From: Cloeon dipterum
Lineage: Eukaryota; Arthropoda; Insecta; Ephemeroptera; Baetidae
DNA: 64,000 bases
Reading direction: 5' to 3'
Assembly: GCF_949628265.1 (NCBI RefSeq)
Contig: NC_088787.1
Location: forward strand, 27,642,501 to 27,706,500
Below, piece by piece: positions 3,631 to 36,500 of the stretch; the first letter of the stretch is position 1, and each line of letters begins with the position of its first letter. Under the pieces are notes generated by a model. The model did no database searches, was not told where the DNA came from, and saw only the letters and a program-made list of their open reading frames with translations. The position numbers were made by a program, and so were the translations under genes.

Positions 3631-6600
3631 ATGACAGTGACCAACTTCAACATGATGCGTCCATGTTTTTCTGCCGGTGGATATCCTTTCCAAGGTGCGT
3701 AAATCTCTCGATTTTCCATTTTCATTTTCTACATTTTTTTATTTCACAAAATTTAATACAACCTGTAGCCTGTGACATGGTCAGTTTATTTAATACATGT
3801 TGGCTCAGCAGTATATTTGATCAAATTACTACTACCCTCTGATTCTCGGCTGCCCACCCAAACAGGCGCGTGTGGGAATAGTTAATTACAGCCTTCAACA
3901 CAAATTGCTACCTACCTGCGCCCGCTTAATTCAAGAAGCATTCATTAACCGACGCGGCCAAAGCACTCGCGGTCCAGAAGCGTTAAATTTACGTTCGGTA
4001 AATTATACACGCGCACAGTGTTCGATTGTTTGGTTTACGCGGGCTTTAGTTGGATTTTGGATTGTCCTACACAAATTAAATATTGCTACAACTGTATTTC
4101 AGAGTAGAAAAACTTGAAGAATTCGTACTGTTTGAAGTATATAATATTTATCACTTCATATATTATTACTTACTTGGTATGTCAGGCAAAGTTTTACTGA
4201 CTGTAAAGTTACGCTCTCCATAGAACTCAATTTTATTTGTGTAACATCCTATTTAGTGAGTTTTTAAGAACTGCGTGTGTCTATTAGGCAGTTAAAAATT
4301 TCAGGCTTTCTGCATATATACTATTATGCGCCCTGGAAAGTTGGTCTTAATTTAAATCTCTTACAGAATCCGCAGTCATTATTTACGACCGTAGAGTTCT
4401 GACAAACCTGTGAAAAAATTTGATTTAACTTATGAATAAGCCAGCCTTTAATTAAACATAGCATTTTTCTGTCTTCAATTACTGCTTTATTAGCTTTTTT
4501 ATCCAGATATACTATCTTATCTCGTATTATTATTGAAATATATATATTTTAAATTAAAAACATTGGTCAGTAACTATTTACCTCTAAATTTGGTGCGAAT
4601 AGGGTTCATCCCCTAATTTGGCCCGTGTCCTTCACGCCTAAATTTAGGTGATAATAGCAACACCCTTACAAAATTAAACCACGGAAAATTACCTTATAAG
4701 GATTATTCAAGAAAATTCTATTCAATAACAATATTCTTTTGTTTGCCAACAACAAAAAAGAGGTTTTTTCTAAGGTTAATCGTTTCCCACTAATTTTTCT
4801 CTAAATCTGATGATTATGAGCGTAACCATACATATATCGAAACTGTGTGGTCTTATTCTCAACTGTAAAATTCACAAAGTTTTTTTTAGCAAAACAGAAA
4901 TAATACTGTTACCCATTTTTCCCTCCGTAGATTCCAAAGCAATGAAATCTCTATATCAAACGCAAAATTACAACCAAATATGCTAAAATGTGCCTACTTT
5001 TTTTCTCTAAATGATAAAAAGTTTGAAAAGTTTGTATTTCACGGCACATATTTTGGAACAAATAGAAAAGTGTCACTTTACTTGTATTTATTCTTTTTTA
5101 AAAAATAATGTATGTTGATTAAATTTTCTTACCGCCCAGCAAAAGCTTAGGAAAGAATAATATTATTACTTCAATGCTTTGGAACCAAAATTTTCTGTGC
5201 TGCAGTGCGGTTCTTAACCAACAATGTTAAACGTGATTTTCACACATACCATCAGACATTTCAGAAAACAAATAATATACATATATATGTGCTGCTGGAA
5301 TAGTTACACTTGACTATAGAAAAGGACTAGAAGTCGGAAAGTTCATTGCACTGCAGTAAGGAATTTTGTGGACAAGAATTTCTAGCTGCTGCTTGGGAGT
5401 TAATGGTTCATTTTTGACAAAGGGAAAAGGGAGAAAACTTATGTGCATGCTGTGCATTCAGGTGACAGGTAAATATAATATTTTCTGCTATTAGTGCAAT
5501 ATAGATTGTTCCCTCCTATGCAAACTGTCAAACTTTGGAAGATGTCACAGTAGGATTCCAAAATATTTGTTCCATTTATTACAGGCCAGGGTCGTGTGAA
5601 CCAACTGGGTGGCGTGTTCATCAATGGTCGTCCGTTGCCGAACCACACTCGTCTCAGGATTGTCGAGATGGCTGCTGAAGGAGTGCGACCGTGTGTAATT
5701 TCGCGCCAACTCAGGGTGTCACATGGCTGCGTCTCCAAGATCCTCAACAGATATCAGGTGAGAAGCATTAGGCAGCGCGATAATTCTACGCAATTGCATG
5801 AAAGTAAACCGATTAAGATATATTTATGAACTCTTAAATGGCATGGCCTGTCATTGGGAAATAATAATTGCGTGGAATTTTGAATCATGATGTTTAAAAT
5901 TCAAATTTTACCGTAAAGGAAATTACAAATTATTAATAGTTATTAATGAGTTAAGTAGGCAAATAAATTTTTTAATCACATTTCACTGGGGCAGCGGCCA
6001 TAGCCCGTAGCTCCGTTCATTAACGCAAATTTTGGTGTTAGAAAATAAATTAAAATTCAACATTTTGTTGGAGGTCATGGGCAATCGCCACTTCCACAGC
6101 AATTTGTGATTACTCCAACAATAAAGTCGAGATTAAAAAATAAAAACACAGTGTGAAATGAGGTTTTCTTAATAAATATTGCAACTTAAAATCCACAATG
6201 GCTTCAATTTAAAAAGTTGTCATCGCAATAAATTACAATGACCATTCTTTGCTCTTCAGGAAACTGGCTCGATAAGACCTGGAGTGATTGGTGGCAGCAA
6301 GCCCCGAGTTGCCACGCCAGACGTCGAGAGAAGGGTTGAGGAATACAGACGAGATAACCCTGGAATGTTCAGCTGGGAAATAAGAGACAAGTTAGTAGAT
6401 TTCAATTATTTCAGTTGATTTTTAAAAGAGTGCTTATTACATTTTTTCATAAGACCACCGCTTAAATAATTAGACTAATCCAAAGTAGAGTTTAGCACTT
6501 ACGAACGGATCAAGCTTAATATCAAGAATTTAAATCCCGAAACTTGAATGCCATGCACATTAACTTATGGTTAGTTGACACTTTTGGTACTGGCTTATTA

Positions 6601-26700: not shown

Positions 26701-29633
26701 CGTGGTCATCAGGACGCTGTCCAAAACCAACGAGGGCAAAGTTGTGTTCGCCTTTCAAAGAGTAAGCTGTGCCAGATGGGTTGTACAGTGGCTAATTTTG
26801 TAACAATCCGCAGGCATTGGCTGACGACCCAATTGAAAACAAGAAAGAAGTTTTCACAGAAGGGCAAGCCATCTTGGTCAGGGTGGAAAACGTAGCATCT
26901 GAAATCAGAGAGCATAAGTTAGCTGCCCAAGCCACAGGAAGTACGAAACTGATGGATGTCTGCCCATATGGAGTTGACATGGTTTGTTCACAAAAATATA
27001 TTTTGAATTGAAAACTTGTACATTCGAAGGCAACTTTGAAGTACTTTACAAGTAATTCTTTGTAGTGCGATTTCCTTTTTACTGCTCAAGTATTGGTTTC
27101 CTGCTAATTAAAAACTTACCGGACAAAACCACTCCTCATTTCTAACAATTTATTCATGCAGGGTGGCCTAAGTTTTGCTGATAACTACGTTCAAATATGC
27201 GGCCAAATCCACCAGAAACTGAAGAAGAATAAGCACCCTCTTGCGTCCTATGAACCTGGCCAGATGGTAAACGCCAAGATCAAATCAATCAATGCTGGTT
27301 GTGCTGAAGTGAAACTGGATGGTGGCGTCATAGGCTTCATCAGCAACTATCACTCACATGGTAAGTGTTAATTTAAACCATCGTTGCTGTTTGTTCTCTA
27401 ATATTTGAAACAGAAAATAAGAAATCAAAGAAAGGTTTACTTAGACTAATACTCAAGCTAAATTATTTTTGAAATTTTAGGCACTGCGTTAGAAGTGAAT
27501 CAGGACGTACATGCTATTGTGATATGGGTTGACCTAGGCTCTCAGCGTGTACATTTGTCCATTCGACCAGACATCTTGAAGCAAATTCACAAGGATCAAG
27601 GTAAATATAATGAGGCGAATGTCACTTTGTTAATCTTCAGATTAAATCTGTGAACACAACATTATTTTTTCTGCCTTTTTTAACATAAATGGGTGGCTAT
27701 AAATTGCACATAAGTCCAAATGTATTTTTTAAATGATGTTTTGTTTAACTTGTCTTTGTTAACAATATATACAGCCTTAGAGCATTTTTCACAATTATTG
27801 ATGATTTGACAGCATCCTGTCCGAAGCCAAAACTGGAGTCTACTCAACGCGGCGAAGTTATTTTCAGCACCAATGAGGTCGCTGTGGTTGTCCTCAAGGG
27901 ACAGTGCAAAGGACTGATTGCTTGCGCTCCTGTCAAGAAGCACATAAACGACCTGACTCCTATCCACAACTATGTCCTGGGCACTACATGCAAATTTGTT
28001 TTTAAGAGGTTTTGATTGCTATTATGCTGACAAATTTCGTGCAACTTCAATTTAAACTTCCAGCTTGGACCGTATGATACCTGTTTGCGTGAACAAGCGT
28101 GATCTGCCCAACAAGGGCAAAAAGCAAAAAGCTGTACCTGGAAGCCTTGAGTGGAAGGTGCAAAAGATGGAAGCTAAGAAACGAGCCCAGATTGAAATCA
28201 AGAAGGAGGTTGACAGTGATATGGAGGTTGAGGTAAAACGGCTTAAGGTGGACACTGATGTCAAGCTGGAGGAAGACGTCAAAGAGGAGCGGCTGATTTT
28301 AGACGCCCCTGACGAAGATGAAATCACCGAGGTGCCCAAGGAGGAAATCCAAGTTGAGAAGAAAAAAACCAAAAAGAAGGGAGAACCCCAAACTTTGCAG
28401 GTTGAAGGTTTCGTGTGGGACCCAGTCGCGGCCAAACCAGAAGAAGAAGAAGAATCTTCAAGTGACGAGAGCGACCAGGAAGAGGTACGTCTGATTGGAA
28501 CTTTTTGGTTTGGCTAACCAGGTCGTGTTGTAGGTCCCCAAAAAGAAGCTGACTTTGGCTGAGAGAAGAGCACAAGCTAGGAAAGAGGAGGAGAAATTGG
28601 TCATAGCTGAGCAGAAACTGATGGACGAAGACCAGTCTCCTCAGAGCGTGGACGAGTTTGATCGTTTGCTCATGGCGTCCCCAGACAGCTCAATTGTGTG
28701 GGTGCAGTACATGGCTTTCCATCTACAGGTATTTATTCTTATCAAATTTGTTCCCTCCTTTACTTATCTACTCTTAAATAAGGCGACCGAGATAGAGAAG
28801 GCACGAGCTGTGGCGCGGAAAGCTATCAATACCATTTCGTTCCGTGAGGAGCAAGAGAAGCTCAATGTGTGGGTTGCTCTGCTCAACTTGGAGAACATGT
28901 ACGGCACACCAGAGACCTTGGAGAAAACTCTTCAAGAGGCAGTACAGCTGAATGACGCCCAAAAGGTGTACACGCAAATGCTGAAAATATTTTCAGACAC
29001 AAACAAAATTGAGGTGTGTTTCTTATACTTCTAAAATATTCATTTTTGATTATTTGATGTAATTTATTAAAGGAGGGAAATTCTCTCTTTGACACTATGC
29101 TGCGCAAGTTCCGTGCTGACAAAGACACCTGGATTCAGGGTGGCACCTTTTACTACAAAACCAATCAGTTCGAGAAGGGGAGACACCTTTTGCAGAGAGC
29201 GCTTCGTAGTCTGGAAAATCGAGACCGTAAGACTAAATTTATCCTCACCTCCCATTATCTTTCATAAATTTTATTTGCAGATGTGGATGTTATATGCAGA
29301 TTTGCTCATCTCGAAAACAAGCATGGCTCTCCAGAGAGATGTCAGACTTTGTTTGAACATATTCTAACCACTTTCCCTAAACGGACTGACGTTTGGAGCT
29401 CTTATGTGGATCTTATGGTTAAATCTGGAAATACAGACGCTGCCCGGAGCATAATGGAAAGGGCTATAACGCAGAAGCTACCTGTCAGGAAAATGAAGGT
29501 TATATTCAAGAAGTACCTAGAATTTGCCCAGCAGCATGGCAGCGAAGAGGAAGTTGCAGCAGTAAAAGAAAAAGCTCAGCAGTTTGTGCTGTCTGTCGCT
29601 TCTAGTTTGCCTTTAGGAGAAGATTCTGATTGA
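23776..29633 (+). CDS. PDCD11: RRP5/PDCD11 ribosome-biogenesis protein (19 exons, 1420 aa)
   Basis: Exons: 23776-23865, 23979-24110, 24176-24325, 24379-24534, 24587-24719, 24776-24939, 25148-25623, 25678-25891, 25947-26126, 26231-26761, 26814-26981, 27162-27360, 27481-27600, 27813-28008, 28064-28484, 28534-28728, 28783-29013, 29073-29226, 29281-29633. A Lys-rich nucleolar-type N-terminus precedes a long array of S1 RNA-binding repeats (aa about 75-1000; first one begins VLSEGMLVLGCVREVHSYYL). A charged linker (aa 970-1110) follows, then HAT/TPR-like helical repeats (aa about 1150-1410; e.g. NVWVALLNLENMYG and AHLENKHGSPERCQTLFEH). In the family this nucleolar protein binds pre-rRNA and is needed for both 18S and 5.8S/5S-containing subunit assembly. 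Length fits insect homologues. The gene is compact, with mostly 50-150 bp introns. Paralogues are not expected. Confidence 0.95.
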
Positions 29634-29647: not shown

Positions 29648-30669
29648 ACTAACTTCTTAAATTAACATTACAACCTCTGTCATTAATGAAAGCATATTGA
29701 TGACACAATTAATTTTTGGATAAAGGAAAAACAGATTAAAAAAATTCATGTTAACTTAAAACCAAGCAAACAAAAATGAATGAAAGCTTTACTTTAAACA
29801 TGAAAGTGTAAAATGGACAAGAAAATTACTATATTTTATAAGGATATCACCGTTCACTGCTTTTTCCTTTGACAGCTTGAGAAAGGGTAAAACAAGCAAA
29901 CAAAAATTATATGTAGTACACACATAAAATATCAAAATCAGAATTTATGTGTTGAATGGACACACACATTAAGGTGGTCACACAGTTTAGAGACACGTAG
30001 TTTGCGGGCAGCTGTTTTCTGGGTGATAGTGCGATATACTGGCTCTCTGATTGGCTTAAATTGCTGCCACATGCGGTCAATGCAATCCCCTTTAGCTGAG
30101 GATTGCATTGAGATGTATTTTTTAAAATTTGAATGGGGAGAACAATGAGAAAGGGAGAATAATCGATTAAACATATTTCGAGACAGCTTATTCGGGTTAG
30201 GAGACAATCGTAAAATTGCGACTTCCTTATCAATCTGATAGCTTTTCCTTTCTCTTGAAGTGTAATTTGCAATATTTTTGATAAAATAAACCAGATTCAA
30301 AGTACCTTTTCTGATATTGAAGTGTTCTCGTCCTAGCATAAGGGGATTCGTTTCTCATTCAACATCAAGGAAAATTTAAGTTTTGATTTCAATATGCATT
30401 ATATGGTTGAAGTTTTCATCACTCAAAGGAAAAGAGATGGAGAGAGCAATTAAATGTTTTTTCATACTCAATAAAATTGCAAAAATACTTGTTTAAACAA
30501 ATTCATATTTTTGATTATTTTCACTTACTAACTTTACTAACTTAATATTGTTAAACGTAAATAAGCTACTTCCAAATTTCCTGATAATTGTTTTATAATC
30601 ATATCTATTTAACTGTTACCATGGTTGCCGATAAAATATCAAATTTTCAAATAATAATAATAATGTCAG

Positions 30670-30675
30670 TTTATT
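30670..30675 (-). terminator. Poly(A) signal of the transposon gene
   Basis: TTTATT on the + strand (AATAAA on -) about 50 nt past the TAA stop of the transposon-encoded gene. It is consistent with an expressed, short 3' UTR. Confidence 0.5.
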
Positions 30676-30723
30676 TCGTATAAAAATACTGTAGCAATAT
30701 TGTCAGTCAAATCGACTAGCCTG

Positions 30724-32394
30724 TTATTTGCAACAGGTTTTCAGTCCATTCTTTTTGCAACATTCTTCACAGCAATATTCAAAGTCCTCAAAATTTTTAG
30801 AGTTACATACTAACTTCCATTGTTTTGAGTGAACTTTTTCCACACACTTAATATGGAACTTTGCTGGGCACATGTCACAGGACACCCAAGGGAATTTCTT
30901 CTTTTTTTTCTGTTCTTCTGAAAAGAAAAAGTGGCAGCCATTGCACTCCCAGTCGTCTTCCGAGCGTCCAGCTTGAGCATCAAGGTTTTCTAAGTTTCCT
31001 GAGCGGGTAACGTGATACTCCAGGCGACGGTGGGTTCTTCTTGGTTTCTTAGGAGCAGCAGACGCCTTTTTCTTTTCCATTTTGTTCCTAAAAAATTCCT
31101 CAGATGCGCTGGCCCTGCTGCTTCTGATGTTTGCTACATCAGACATAAGCTCTTTCTGTAAATTGTTAGTATTTAGCTTAAATAATTTTCTAATCAATTT
31201 TACATACCCGAAACTCTTGTCGCACCAACTCATCCACTGTCACCTCTGAGCGACCTTTGGAGTGGTGCTCAGAGTGTTTCCACCGAAGAATTGGGTGCCT
31301 CCTAATAAACCTTTGGGTCCACGACAAGCTGGGCATATTGTCTTTAAAAGTGGTTTGCACCCCTGCGTAATCGAGCACGTCTTTAGTGAGTGTGCACAGT
31401 TCCAGGTGGGTCAGGCCATAACCAATGCGTGCAACATTAACGGCGAATTTGACAATTTCCTGCTCAACTTCAGCAGGCACATTAGTAGGCGGACCACGCC
31501 TTTTATCTCCAAGGGGTGAGTGGCTCTTTACTCTTCGAAATAGAGTTTGGTGAGGAACTCCATACTTTTGCGAGGCAGCCCTCAAACTCATTCCCTTGTG
31601 TATAATGCTTACAATAGCCCTATTCAAATCCGTGGCAGTGTAAGAACGAAGAACGATTTTCTTTGCCTTCTTCTTGGCCGCTTTTTGCACTGCAACAAGC
31701 AAATCATCCTCAGCATTGTGCTCCTCCTCCTCCTCCTTGCAATCCTCGGGCTCGGGCTCCTCCTCCTCTTCCTCCATCCCGCCACAATTTGATTCACAGA
31801 TGCCTATTTTGGGACGCTGAAAAAGGGTTCAATTGAGTGAAACAGTGGTTCATCTATAACTAGACTTTACCTTTTTTGGTGCAGTATTGGTGGACATCTT
31901 CAGTTTTCTTTTGTAGCTAAGTGGCACAGGCCAGCTTGCTACTCTTTCTTTGTCACTGCTATCAGTAGTCTCAACGGTTCTTGACTCGGTGCCAATGCTT
32001 TCAGTAGAAGAACTTGGGCGCTGAAAAAGGGTAAAATTAACTAAAAGAGTGGTTAATCCAACTAGAATTTACCTTTGTTGCTACATTCTTGAAGGGGCTC
32101 TTCACTTTTTCATTCACATTGGTATTACATAGCAAAACAGCACACCCTTCCTCCTGCCCCTTGCCAAGCTCACTATTTTTTAAATTGTTTGGAGAATTGT
32201 GATGTACTGGTTCTGTATCAAACGTGAGCTGAGGATAATATATTATATAAGTAATTTGTATGAATGTAATACAACATATAACAATATTATAGAAGTATTT
32301 TTATACATAATCTACAAACCTTCTTGCAGCCCTTCTTTGTCGATCTTTTTTTGGCTCTTCTCCCAATCCTCTTCCTTTTTGCGACTTTAGCCAT
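30724..32394 (-). CDS. Transposon-encoded HTH-psq/CENP-B plus PHD-like protein, 473 aa
   Basis: Exons in transcript order: 32394-32320, 32228-32073, 32020-31871, 31816-31208, 31155-30724; all joins phase 0, introns 52-91 bp. A basic NLS-like start (MAKVAKRKRIGRRAKKR) is followed by acidic linkers. A pipsqueak-type helix-turn-helix (SLRAASQKYGVPHQTLFRR) comes next, then a second CENP-B/Tc5-type helical region closing with LSWTQRFIRRHPILRW. In pogo/Tigger/Jerky transposases a DDE-type nuclease follows here. In this gene a 52-bp intron leads straight to a Lys/Arg-rich linker and a Cys/His cluster (CNGCHFF..., CDMCPAKFHIKCVEK..., CCEECC) resembling a PHD/RING-like finger. It should bind DNA but cannot catalyse transposition. 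The reading frame has no lesions. It may be a repressor, a non-autonomous derivative or a domesticated gene. Confidence 0.8.
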
Positions 32395-33272
32395 TTTAAT
32401 CTTCTCTTAAGTTCTCTGCTAAAATCCATAGGTTCACTTTAATTTTTACATTTTAGCATTTTATCAACAAAAAATTAATTTTTAGTTTATTACATTGACA
32501 AATTTTGTAAATTTACATTATTTTTATTTGCCCTTTGAATTGTTTGAAATCAAACCAGAGAGAAAGAGGGGCCCAGGTCTCAATTTGTGTGACCTCTTTT
32601 AATGAGGGTTAATTTCCCCAAATTAATCAACCCTTGTCGTTCATAACCGAGGCTTCGATAAACCCGTAATCAAACTCGAGTGGGAATCGTATAGTGAAAT
32701 GAGGCTTAATTTTCAGAATGGGGAAGTTTTCACGAATTACATAAAGAAATGATGATCCGTGAGTTTCAATTTTGAAATTTTCGACCTGGCAACTTAAAGT
32801 TTTGAGTAGAAATACAAAGGCGCACAAGCTGGTGTAACCTTATTAGGCCTCGCGCCGGCACACGTTCACGTCCGAATCAAGGAGTTTGCAGCTTACGGCC
32901 CGGATTTCACTGGGTTATTTAAGGAATATTTTAAATTTAAGCCTGTCAATGCAATCTCCAGAACATGCTGGTGTTAAAGATAATATAATATAAATATCAT
33001 TAATTACCGTTTATATCCTACTTAACAAGACCATGAAACATGGCGAGCCTACAGAGAGCGCGCGTTTTCACATTTTTTTCAGCTGATGAATCACTTTTAC
33101 AGTCGCCACCTCTTAACCAACACTTAAACTTCTATTCAAAACACTCCTTAATACTCAAGGAAAGTAGTGAGGCAAAAAAAATTAATATCATTGCCATCTG
33201 TTGAGTATATGTCGCACGAACCACTATTTTGTCTACAAATACGACTTGTCTCTAAACTGTGTGACCACCATA

Positions 33273-33598
33273 TTTTATAATTATAGGGCAACTGAAAAAT
33301 AACCAGTACATATTATGGAAAAATTAGTTTTCGCCACCCCTACTTTAATAATAATAGGGATATTCTCTTAAGAACTGGCGAGATAATATGCAACCCGGCA
33401 GAAACTGTAACTTAACTATGATTAAGACATCTATCTGTCAGCATTGTCTCATAATATCCCACCCTGTATCCTTTTACTAAGACGACTGATCCAGATTTCA
33501 GACCAGTAGACAGTGCGACAGTAGATAGATCAGTAAGATCAGATTCAGACTGCCACCCGCCAAAACACGCACCACGCCCACCTGCTAATATAAACAAC
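33273..33598 (+). promoter_or_regulatory. CDC16 promoter region
   Basis: Only 326 bp separate the transposon end from the CDC16 start codon, and about 100 bp of that is a small MITE (33316-33416). No TATA box is evident. The clean proximal promoter and 5' UTR of CDC16 are therefore confined to roughly 33419-33598 unless element sequence contributes. Confidence 0.5.
33316..33416 (+). mobile_element. Small TA-flanked MITE, copy 1
   Basis: It shares the interior TTCGCCACCCCTACTTTAA ... AGAACTGGCGAGAT ... ACCCGGCAGAAACTGT with copy 2 in CDC16 intron 4, in the opposite orientation. Ends TGGAAAAATTAGTTTT and AGAAACTGTAACTTAAC are degenerate inverted repeats; TA occurs at both boundaries (33314-33315, 33417-33418). 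It is non-coding. Confidence 0.75.
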
Positions 33599-36500
33599 AT
33601 GTCAGATGGTAAATACGAAAAAATGAAAACGCCGGCTGAGTTTGAAGATTCTATTAGTAAAGAACTCATCCAATCTTACCGAAATATTGTCCGATCGTAT
33701 TATGAAAAGGTTTGGAACTATTAAATATTAAAAACTGTCTGTAAACACGCGTTTCGTCTTTTGCACAGCACCTGTACAAATCTGCTGCATTTTGGGCTGA
33801 CAAAATAATGTGTATTACCAACGATCCGCACGATATTTACTGGAATGCACAGTGTCTTTATCACTTGAGGGAGTTCCAGAGAGCCGCCAATATAATCACA
33901 AGTCGAAATTTGCACAAGGTTTGTTTGAAATAATTTCAAGAGGTTGGACCATTAGAGACGCATACAAAATCATGTATGATAATAAACAATTTATTATGTA
34001 ATATTTTTTATTCTTTTAGACCATTCCTCAATGCCAGTACGTTGCTTCTAAAAGTCTTTTTGAAGCTAAAGAATACCATGATTCGCTGACAATTTTGGAG
34101 AGTCTCGAGTTTGATTATACCTTGGCGGGGAAATCTTTTTTGAGTGACACAACAAGGACAGAAAATACAGGCATGGAATGTGTTGAGGTATCAGGTTTTG
34201 CTCTGACCTAAAATAAAATCATTTAATTCTCCAATTTGTAGTTGCACAGCGCAATTTTGCTGCTTAAAGCTCAAGTTCTGCAAGCGAATGGGAACCGAGT
34301 AAGAGCCTCTGAATGCTATCGTGAGGCATTGCTCACTGACATCAGGTGTCATGAAGCCTTTGATTCGCTGGTTCGCTTACAGATGCTTACTTCTGTTGAG
34401 GGTATGTAAAGCTTATTTTAACTTGTATTATTCTGGCAATGAAATTTGTTATGTAATTGGTTACTATCAAGCAAAGTAAAAAAAAGAATAGGCAAGGTCC
34501 AATTTTTTTACCTACAGCAAAGAAATTCAATAATTAATTCTTCGCTTTATTTTTGTGATAATCACTATGTCATCTATATCATCTATATACTGCTGTAAAA
34601 TATGGTAAAGTAACAGTTTCTGCCGGGTTACACATCTCGCCAGTTCTTATGAGAATCCCATGTTAAAGTAGGGGTGGCGAAAACTGTAACTCTGCGGCGA
34701 AAACTGTAACTTTTCCATATGTTGGTATTTATGATTTTTTTCACCTTGCATATTATGTAGATGGCTAACCTAGCGACCATGAATGGATTATTTTACAGAA
34801 CAAGAGCTAATGGATAGACTGGAGAGTCAAATGTCTTCCCAATGCTCAGCAGAAGAGGCGAACATGTTGAGGCTACTGTACCGAGGGCAACTGAAGAAGT
34901 ATGACAAGCCGAGAAAAGTGCCTGATGCCAGTCCAGATCAGAGCATTGACCACAACAGTACAGCAGACGTCCGATACCTGGAGAGCAATGATTCGCGTTT
35001 CCAGTTGTCGAAGAGCCTTGATTGCAAGGCGTGGCATTCTGAAAGACTCTACTACAACTGCGACTATCATCGATGCCTGGAAGTCACTAATGAGTAAGAA
35101 ATTAAGCAACAAATAATGATGTTTATTGCGTTTTTGAAGAGTAAAAGAAGGAATTTTATGTCTATGAATTGATAGCTCTGGAATCTGTAGGATAAAATTC
35201 AATTTTTGCACAATACTGTAATAATGCATTTTAACATAATCTTTTTAAAATTCCTTGCCAGAATATTGAAGTTGGACCCATACCACTTGGGATGTCTACC
35301 GGTTCACATTGGATGCTTAGTTCAGTTCAACAAGGCAAATGGTAAGCGCAGCTTTGTTTATTTCCCTTCTTAACATTCATGGTGCTTCAGATTTGTTCCA
35401 ACTTGCTCACCGGCTCGTCAAATTGTACCCCGAGGAGGCAATATCATGGTATGCTGTTGGCTGCTACTATTTTGTGATTGGTCCGTGAAATAACATAGAT
35501 TTGCTTGAATTTCATTACACGATTGTCTTAAAAATTATAATAGGTAAAAGCGACCCAGCACGAAGATATCTGAGCAAAGCGACCATGATCGACCAGCTGT
35601 TTGGACCTGCTTGGCTCGCATATGGACACTCTTTTGCTTCTGAGAACGAACACGATCAAGCCATGGCTGCTTATTTCAGGGCTTCTCAGCTTATGAAAGG
35701 GTATGGTGGACATCATAACAATTCTCAAACTAGAATAAAATTCAAGATATAACAGAACATTTATATTACTGTCAAATGTGCGTTAGTCGCGATTTTCAAA
35801 ACTGAAAATTCAATTATTTCATGGTTCAAAATTGCGATTTCAGGTGTCACTTGCCATTGCTATATGTCGGCTTGGAAAGTGGTTTGACAAACAACACCGA
35901 GTTAGCTGACAAGTTTTTCACTCAAGCGAGAGAAATAGCGCCTTGCGACCCCTACGTTTTACACGAAATGGGCGTTACTTCATTTCTTGATGATGAGTAA
36001 GCAAAGTGACTGAAATGCTCCTATCACTCTTCTTATTGAAAAATAGTTTCCAGAATGCGAAAAAGTGCTTTGAGAGTGCTCTTGCGCAAATCCAGGAGAG
36101 TGACTCTCGGCGGTTGGAAGAGAACTGGGAACCGCTCTTCAACAATTTGGCTCATGTGTACAGAAAATTGGGTAAACTCCCTGAGGCGCTGCAGCTGCAT
36201 CAGCAGGCGTTGTCGCTGCAGCCACTGAATGGGTCCACGTATGCGGCAATTGGCCTCGTGCAGATGCTGATGGGCCGATTGCTTGAAGCTGTTGAGTCAT
36301 TCCACGAGGCGTTGGGACTCAAGCCCGAGGACTCGTTTAGCACTACTATGCTTGGTTACGCCATGGACGCTCTCACCATCGACCCAGTGGATGGTGCTGG
36401 TCAACCATTTGAAGGTACGTTCAAACAAGGTTTTGTTATTTAAATTTGCACATAGGAAAAACTAAGCAGCAATGCATTAACTATGTTTGTACTTCGAAGT

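Follow-up and report, generated by a model that had tools for sequence, protein, structure and literature searches.

What is to be made of a transposon that has both of its ends and a gene free of inner stops, when that gene carries no nuclease to move it? The question is raised by an element at positions 29972-33270 of a 64,000-nucleotide stretch of the Cloeon dipterum genome (assembly GCF_949628265.1, contig NC_088787.1, here C2; C2:27642501-27706500, forward strand), which we call the window and in which positions are counted unless a contig or locus is named. The element is 3,299 bp long and has terminal inverted repeats (TIRs) with TA on either side, a frame competent for splicing and DNA-binding helices, and no nuclease was found in it. 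As judged from these parts, it is unable to move by itself, having a DNA-gripping part and a zinc-binding-like tail but no cutting enzyme. With a probability of about 0.6, we take it to be non-autonomous, to derive from a pogo/Tc5-type transposon by internal deletion and to encode a DNA-binding-only protein, in the arrangement of the KP element. An earlier note on this DNA had described a TIR element whose single recognisable gene lacks the DDE domain, and this description is borne out by our analysis; its interpretation holds for the DDE-less TIR element and the intron position but not for intactness as a sign of function.

Ends, gene structure and protein domains

The two ends agree at 23 of 23 bases: positions 29973-29995 (+) read GGTGGTCACACAGTTTAGAGACA, of which 33247-33269 is the exact complement. 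The earlier note had proposed 24-bp inverted ends with TA on both sides, of which the TA and 23 bases stand, whereas the outermost, 24th base is mismatched (read inward, the left end has A and the right end T). When the 23-mer was sought with up to 3 mismatches in the whole genome, four sites were returned as against none for the reversed control pattern, and the inverted ends are therefore not a chance pair. This and all other genome-wide searches covered the 190-Mb assembly (10 contigs), and copy counts from them are lower bounds. Two of the four sites are the element's own ends, another is a TA-flanked end fragment, and the remaining one, at C2:17622395 (3 mismatches), was treated as chance or as beyond recognition, since no TA lies beside it and the 14-base complement of the core is absent from the surrounding 9 kb. 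TA stands at an equal offset at both ends of the element and at the end of the related fragment, as asked of pogo-type elements, and the 23 identical bases lie within the TIR length of 40 bp or less given for the pogo superfamily (PMC7386202). A candidate for subterminal binding sites, the 12-mer GTCAATGCAATC common to both subterminal regions, was dropped, as 68 of 300 shuffles of the two regions share a word of 12 or more bases; its 10-base core occurs three times in the window, each time inside the element.

The single recognisable gene lies on the minus strand and, as had been claimed, its five exons all join in phase 0, with no inner stop or frameshift, into 473 aa closed by one terminal stop. 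The exons measure 75, 156, 150, 609 and 432 bp, each divisible by 3, and are separated by four GT-AG introns of 91, 52, 54 and 52 bp; the joined exons have a GC content of 45%, as against 24% for the introns and 31-35% for the element's non-coding flanks. The introns before exons 3 and 4, each taken with the exon sequence next to it, show 76-81% similarity to one another at a spacing of 202-204 bp, which suggests an old exon duplication. The parts of the element are, from left to right:

29970-29971, no strand: TA, left flank, putative target-site duplication, with an offset equal to that of the right end and of the C2:32680019 fragment
29972-29995, plus strand: left TIR, outermost base A and then 23 bases matching the right end
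30670-30675, minus strand: AATAAA polyadenylation-type signal, beginning 49 bases past the last stop base
30724-31155, minus strand: exon 5, 143 aa, a basic linker and then the C4HC3 PHD-like Cys/His cluster; the stop ends at 30724
31156-31207, minus strand: 52-bp GT-AG intron, at the expected DDE start position (DDE place from the L016 alignment)
31208-31816, minus strand: exon 4, 203 aa, an acidic stretch, HTH_psq and a second, CENP-B/Tc5-like helical domain
31871-32020, minus strand: exon 3, 50 aa
32073-32228, minus strand: exon 2, 52 aa
32320-32394, minus strand: exon 1, 25 aa, basic, resembling exon 1 of the C4 paralogue by alignment; the start codon begins at 32394
33247-33270, minus strand: right TIR, its outermost base T when read inward and its other 23 bases matching the left end; boundary backed by the fragment C2:32680019-32680097
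33271-33272, no strand: TA, right flank, putative target-site duplication

The pipsqueak/CENP-B-type helices named in the earlier note were recovered in exon 4, where HTH_psq scores above its Pfam cut-off (E 6.5e-10), which supplies the DNA-binding domain expected of a pogo-type protein, and is followed by a CENP-B-like second helical domain. HTH_Tnp_Tc5 (E 0.13) and CENP-B_N (E 0.17) are both under their Pfam cut-offs, and the best match by sequence among solved structures is the helix-turn-helix (HTH) of LCoR (E 0.014). As to the PHD-like cluster of exon 5, the C4HC3 pattern claimed for it is recognised by eye, but the Pfam profiles for PHD (E 0.47, 11 bits vs a cut-off of 24) and C1_1 (E 2.6e-4) stay under their cut-offs, and the tail is called PHD-like rather than a PHD finger. 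Its best solved-structure match by sequence is a PHD finger at E 1.8, and a single-sequence fold model of the tail, with a mean pLDDT (predicted local distance difference test score) of 52, is too poor for structure search or judgement. Annotated pogo-type proteins of insects and cnidarians include some with PHD-like tails. The main texts of PMC7386202 and PMC7325037 do not contain the term PHD.

In the 473-aa protein, a Pfam scan at E 0.1 detected no DDE domain, and the genome-wide DDE_1 profile search gave no match at the element. A DDE exon elsewhere in the locus, which the earlier note had named as a way in which it could be wrong, was not seen in a Pfam scan (E 1) of the 24 open reading frames (ORFs) overlapping the element that reach at least 50 aa, a scan outside which shorter exons and the wider neighbourhood fall; beyond the HTH and tail matches, it returned only sub-cut-off matches to unrelated families. 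The position of the missing part was read from an alignment of exon 4 with L016, a pogo-type gene of the same genome (C2:36558185). Exon 4 spans the second helical domain and ends shortly before the L016 motif NMDETA, which we take to be the first catalytic Asp region, and the 52-bp intron follows directly where the L016 catalytic domain would start, in agreement with the place that the earlier note had given it. In its TA flanks, its short inverted ends and its HTH_psq followed by CENP-B/Tc5-like helices, the element resembles the HTH_psq/HTH_Tnp_Tc5 branch of the pogo superfamily (IS630-Tc1-mariner), from which it differs in having no DDE that we could find, a spliced five-exon gene and a PHD-like tail. 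Because the DDE nuclease asked of the superfamily was not found, the element is filed as a derivative and not as an autonomous member.

Relatives of the element in the genome

At the DNA level, a search of the genome with the whole element recovered, besides the element, a single further place, C2:32680019-32680097 (79 bp), which is 92% identical to the element's last 75 bases. The homology stops at the right boundary, the TA being included when flanks are added, and therefore lends that boundary independent support. Because this fragment shares the right boundary including the TA, the family is judged to have inserted at least twice, the other insertion surviving as a fragment only, within the reach of the search; its copy number thus stands at one or more complete copies and one or more 79-bp end fragments. 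At the protein level, exon 4 matched 5 of 7 candidates at E 0.01, namely itself, a gene at C4:1491567 (44% identity, E 1.9e-28) and three distant places (E 1.7e-4 to 0.009); exon 5 matched itself alone among 3 candidates, and a scan of viral contigs with exon 4 yielded 35 pattern matches and no relative. Profile searches matched 2 of 6 candidates for DDE_1 (L038 and L039), 16 of 22 for HTH_psq and, at E 1, 8 of 10 for HTH_Tnp_Tc5, and there are genes with tandem psq domains elsewhere in the genome. L038 is a Tc5-type transposase with a C-terminal domain of its own, in which the DNA-binding domain and the DDE share one open frame, and L039 resembles it by eye. The full-length, DDE-bearing relatives and the further copies with the same deletion for which the earlier note had suggested looking did not turn up, as these best-candidate searches of the assembly found neither a close DDE-bearing relative nor a second copy with the same deletion point.

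The gene at C4:1491567 (L013 4003-5349) has four exons in phase 0 (4003-4092, 4471-4560, 4618-4704 and 4759-5349), which were set by eye and then checked computationally, and its third intron has a GC donor. Like the element gene, it combines small phase-0 exons, a basic exon 1 (beginning MARKGRRKFFGRRKKKRS, where the element has MAKVAKRKRIGRRAKKRS) and an HTH exon 4 in whose frame no DDE was found. Unlike the element, it has a different C-terminus, no PHD-like pattern within the 9.9 kb around it and no inverted ends that could be found, the only exact 12-base inverted repeat spanning it in those 9.9 kb being a chance-like pair 5.3 kb apart. In the DNA-binding part, the two genes share 56 identical residues over 119 aligned codons and 5 of 23 fourfold sites, with a nonsynonymous divergence (dN) of 0.51 and a saturated synonymous divergence (dS) of 2.85 (Nei-Gojobori method, NG86). 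Given this dN against a saturated dS, we infer that selection has maintained the DNA-binding part during most of the period after the two genes diverged, including any time spent within active transposons. The C4 locus may be a host gene or the 5' piece of an old element.

Neighbouring genes and other repeats

The element lies between a gene with HAT repeats, which ends near 29632, and another gene, which starts near 33600. The latter has only sub-cut-off TPR and ANAPC3 matches in Pfam and no Pfam match for its first exon; it may be CDC16, the name given in the earlier note, which fits these matches. Around the first exons of this TPR-type gene, two solo ends of another repeat family face away from each other (33326-33419 with 78% and 34601-34719 with 94% identity to L055 ends). 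When up to 3 mismatches are allowed, the genome has 190 occurrences of a 29-base word from this family's end, some of them paired at distances of about 7.9 kb and about 340 bp, spacings that would correspond to a large element and its miniature form. Both insertions of the element's family (33270-33326; L014 4900-5021) lie about 70 bp or less from the inner side of an L055-family end, in the same orientation, which may reflect an insertion preference or coincidence; no convincing alignment between the flanks of the two insertions was obtained beyond the L055-family repeat.

Other observations concern the transposon-related loci met in the searches. Five of the 8 HTH_Tnp_Tc5 matches, both DDE_1 matches and 1 of the 16 HTH_psq matches fall in C2:36461138-37111412, all in the contig's last 1 Mb, and this clustering suggests a transposon-rich chromosome end. 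At L017 4412-6304, a pogo-like gene with HTH_psq and long open frames has a DDE-like region seemingly short of acidic residues by eye, and is possibly a domesticated pogo-type gene. Beside the pogo-type gene of L016, open frames at 5206-6033 bear a resemblance, seen by eye alone, to the viral-type cysteine protease of Maverick/Polinton elements. At L039 1-1433, near a broken Tc5-type transposase, there is a tandem repeat with a 183-bp period and at least 6 copies, 89-93% identical to the first.

What the element may be and may do

If the element is a deletion derivative, its full-length ancestor would have had a DDE nuclease in addition to the DNA-binding helices and the PHD-like tail, and a deletion between two phase-0 splice sites would have taken the DDE part, leaving a frame that still joins the DNA-binding exon to the tail. 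The ends appear complete enough for past movement in trans by a full-length relative. The 473-aa protein, if made, would enter the nucleus and bind the element's own ends without cutting them, and might act as the KP protein does, by occupying transposase sites. In Drosophila, internally deleted P elements, KP among them, encode proteins of this kind (PMC12393704; PMC7776569). Like the element, KP retains its ends, has lost the catalytic part and keeps the DNA-binding part in an open frame (PMC12393704; PMC7776569), and the combination described for it, an interrupted transposase with the DNA-binding domain kept (PMC12393704), is what we find here. On the other hand, KP belongs to an unrelated superfamily and coexists with full-length P elements. 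No related full-length element that could be blocked was found in the assembly, and only 4 target-like sites are present in it, 2 of which are the element's own, so that present-day repression would have hardly any targets and the titrating repressor put forward in the earlier note almost nothing to titrate. Repressor activity may be at most vestigial, and today the element would most likely be a survivor that is fairly young or under low constraint, with few targets remaining for it to repress.

The earlier note had also reasoned from the intact frame to function, and this step finds no support in simulation. When the 1,422-bp frame was given random substitutions (half of them transitions) and indels at 0.1 of the substitutions (80% frame-shifting), it kept clear of stops and frameshifts in 43%, 18%, 3.2% and 0.35% of 2,000 runs per level at 0.5, 1, 2 and 3% divergence, and of stops alone, with indels ignored, in 73%, 56%, 32% and 18%. 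Because simulated frames often survive below about 1-2% neutral divergence, an intact frame at such levels needs no selection and, under this model, is by itself no proof of it. The 23 identical end bases bound the divergence only loosely and are compatible with an age of about 1-2%; the 92% fragment makes the family older and is no statement on the age of this copy. It is possible, although we hold it only tentatively, that the element is a young deletion copy with no protein role, intact because it is recent. Such a copy would agree with the identity of the ends, with the simulated survival of a frame this long and with the failure to find another complete copy, as after a recent arrival or the near-loss of the family, although the other piece, being diverged and truncated, indicates that the family is not brand-new in the genome. 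This explanation overlaps with a deletion derivative and denies only the repressor activity, and the odds of the two are not exclusive.

It seems unlikely that the host has retained the protein, with its DNA-binding and PHD-like parts, for use as a chromatin or transcription factor, with the ends yet to erode and the C4 gene as an earlier or parallel case. The intact frame would suit such a domestication, as would a DDE-less C4 paralogue with the same small-exon start, no spanning inverted repeat beyond the chance-like pair, and a DNA-binding region constrained through most of the divergence from the element; however, that constraint can entirely predate the insertion, and the C4 gene, lacking the PHD-like exon, gives no support for conservation of the whole protein. 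HTH-psq and CENPB domains have been co-opted repeatedly in animals (PMC10027918), and a Tc1/mariner HTH has been captured by F-box genes (PMC12062965). The domesticated pogo-derived genes, such as CENPB, POGK, POGZ and the HTH-psq factors, share with the element a pogo-type DNA-binding domain in an open gene (PMC7386202; PMC10027918), but they are defined by the loss of the inverted ends and the duplication, whereas the element keeps both ends and by this rule counts as a transposon (PMC7386202). Quite improbable, in our view, is a family DDE-less by nature, encoding the accessory DNA-binding protein of a two-part system whose transposase comes from another element, as in PIF/Harbinger, where the DNA-binding and catalytic proteins are separate and the ORF1 DNA-binding protein is needed (PMC2836001). 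Both family members found do lack a DDE and share the layout of the first four exons, and one loss is simpler than two; yet L038 has its DNA-binding domain and DDE in one frame, the catalytic start of L016 follows the helices, no partner element with these ends was found in the assembly, and the element and C4 genes end differently past the second helical domain, which suggests separate truncations. It is similarly doubtful that the DDE loss was ancestral to a small DNA-binding-only lineage spread within ends moved by a foreign transposase, the C4 gene being an end-less host gene and the element, with its chromatin-reading, PHD-like tail between working ends, another of two domestication stages. 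Our ranking places the deletion derivative first, the functionless young copy and domestication next, and the inherently DDE-less accessory lineage last. Among the literature matches listed, none described the element or a pogo-type gene between TIRs that has DNA-binding and PHD-like domains but no DDE.

The element may be a remnant, may restrain its relatives or may be acquiring a new function; as no more than a recent deletion copy, it would be ordinary. From an evolutionary point of view, elements that code for a protein but are non-autonomous may form a bridge from a selfish transposase to a host regulator, and the element, taken together with its end-less, DDE-less C4 paralogue, would let one ask whether the loss of catalysis precedes the loss of mobility in domestication.
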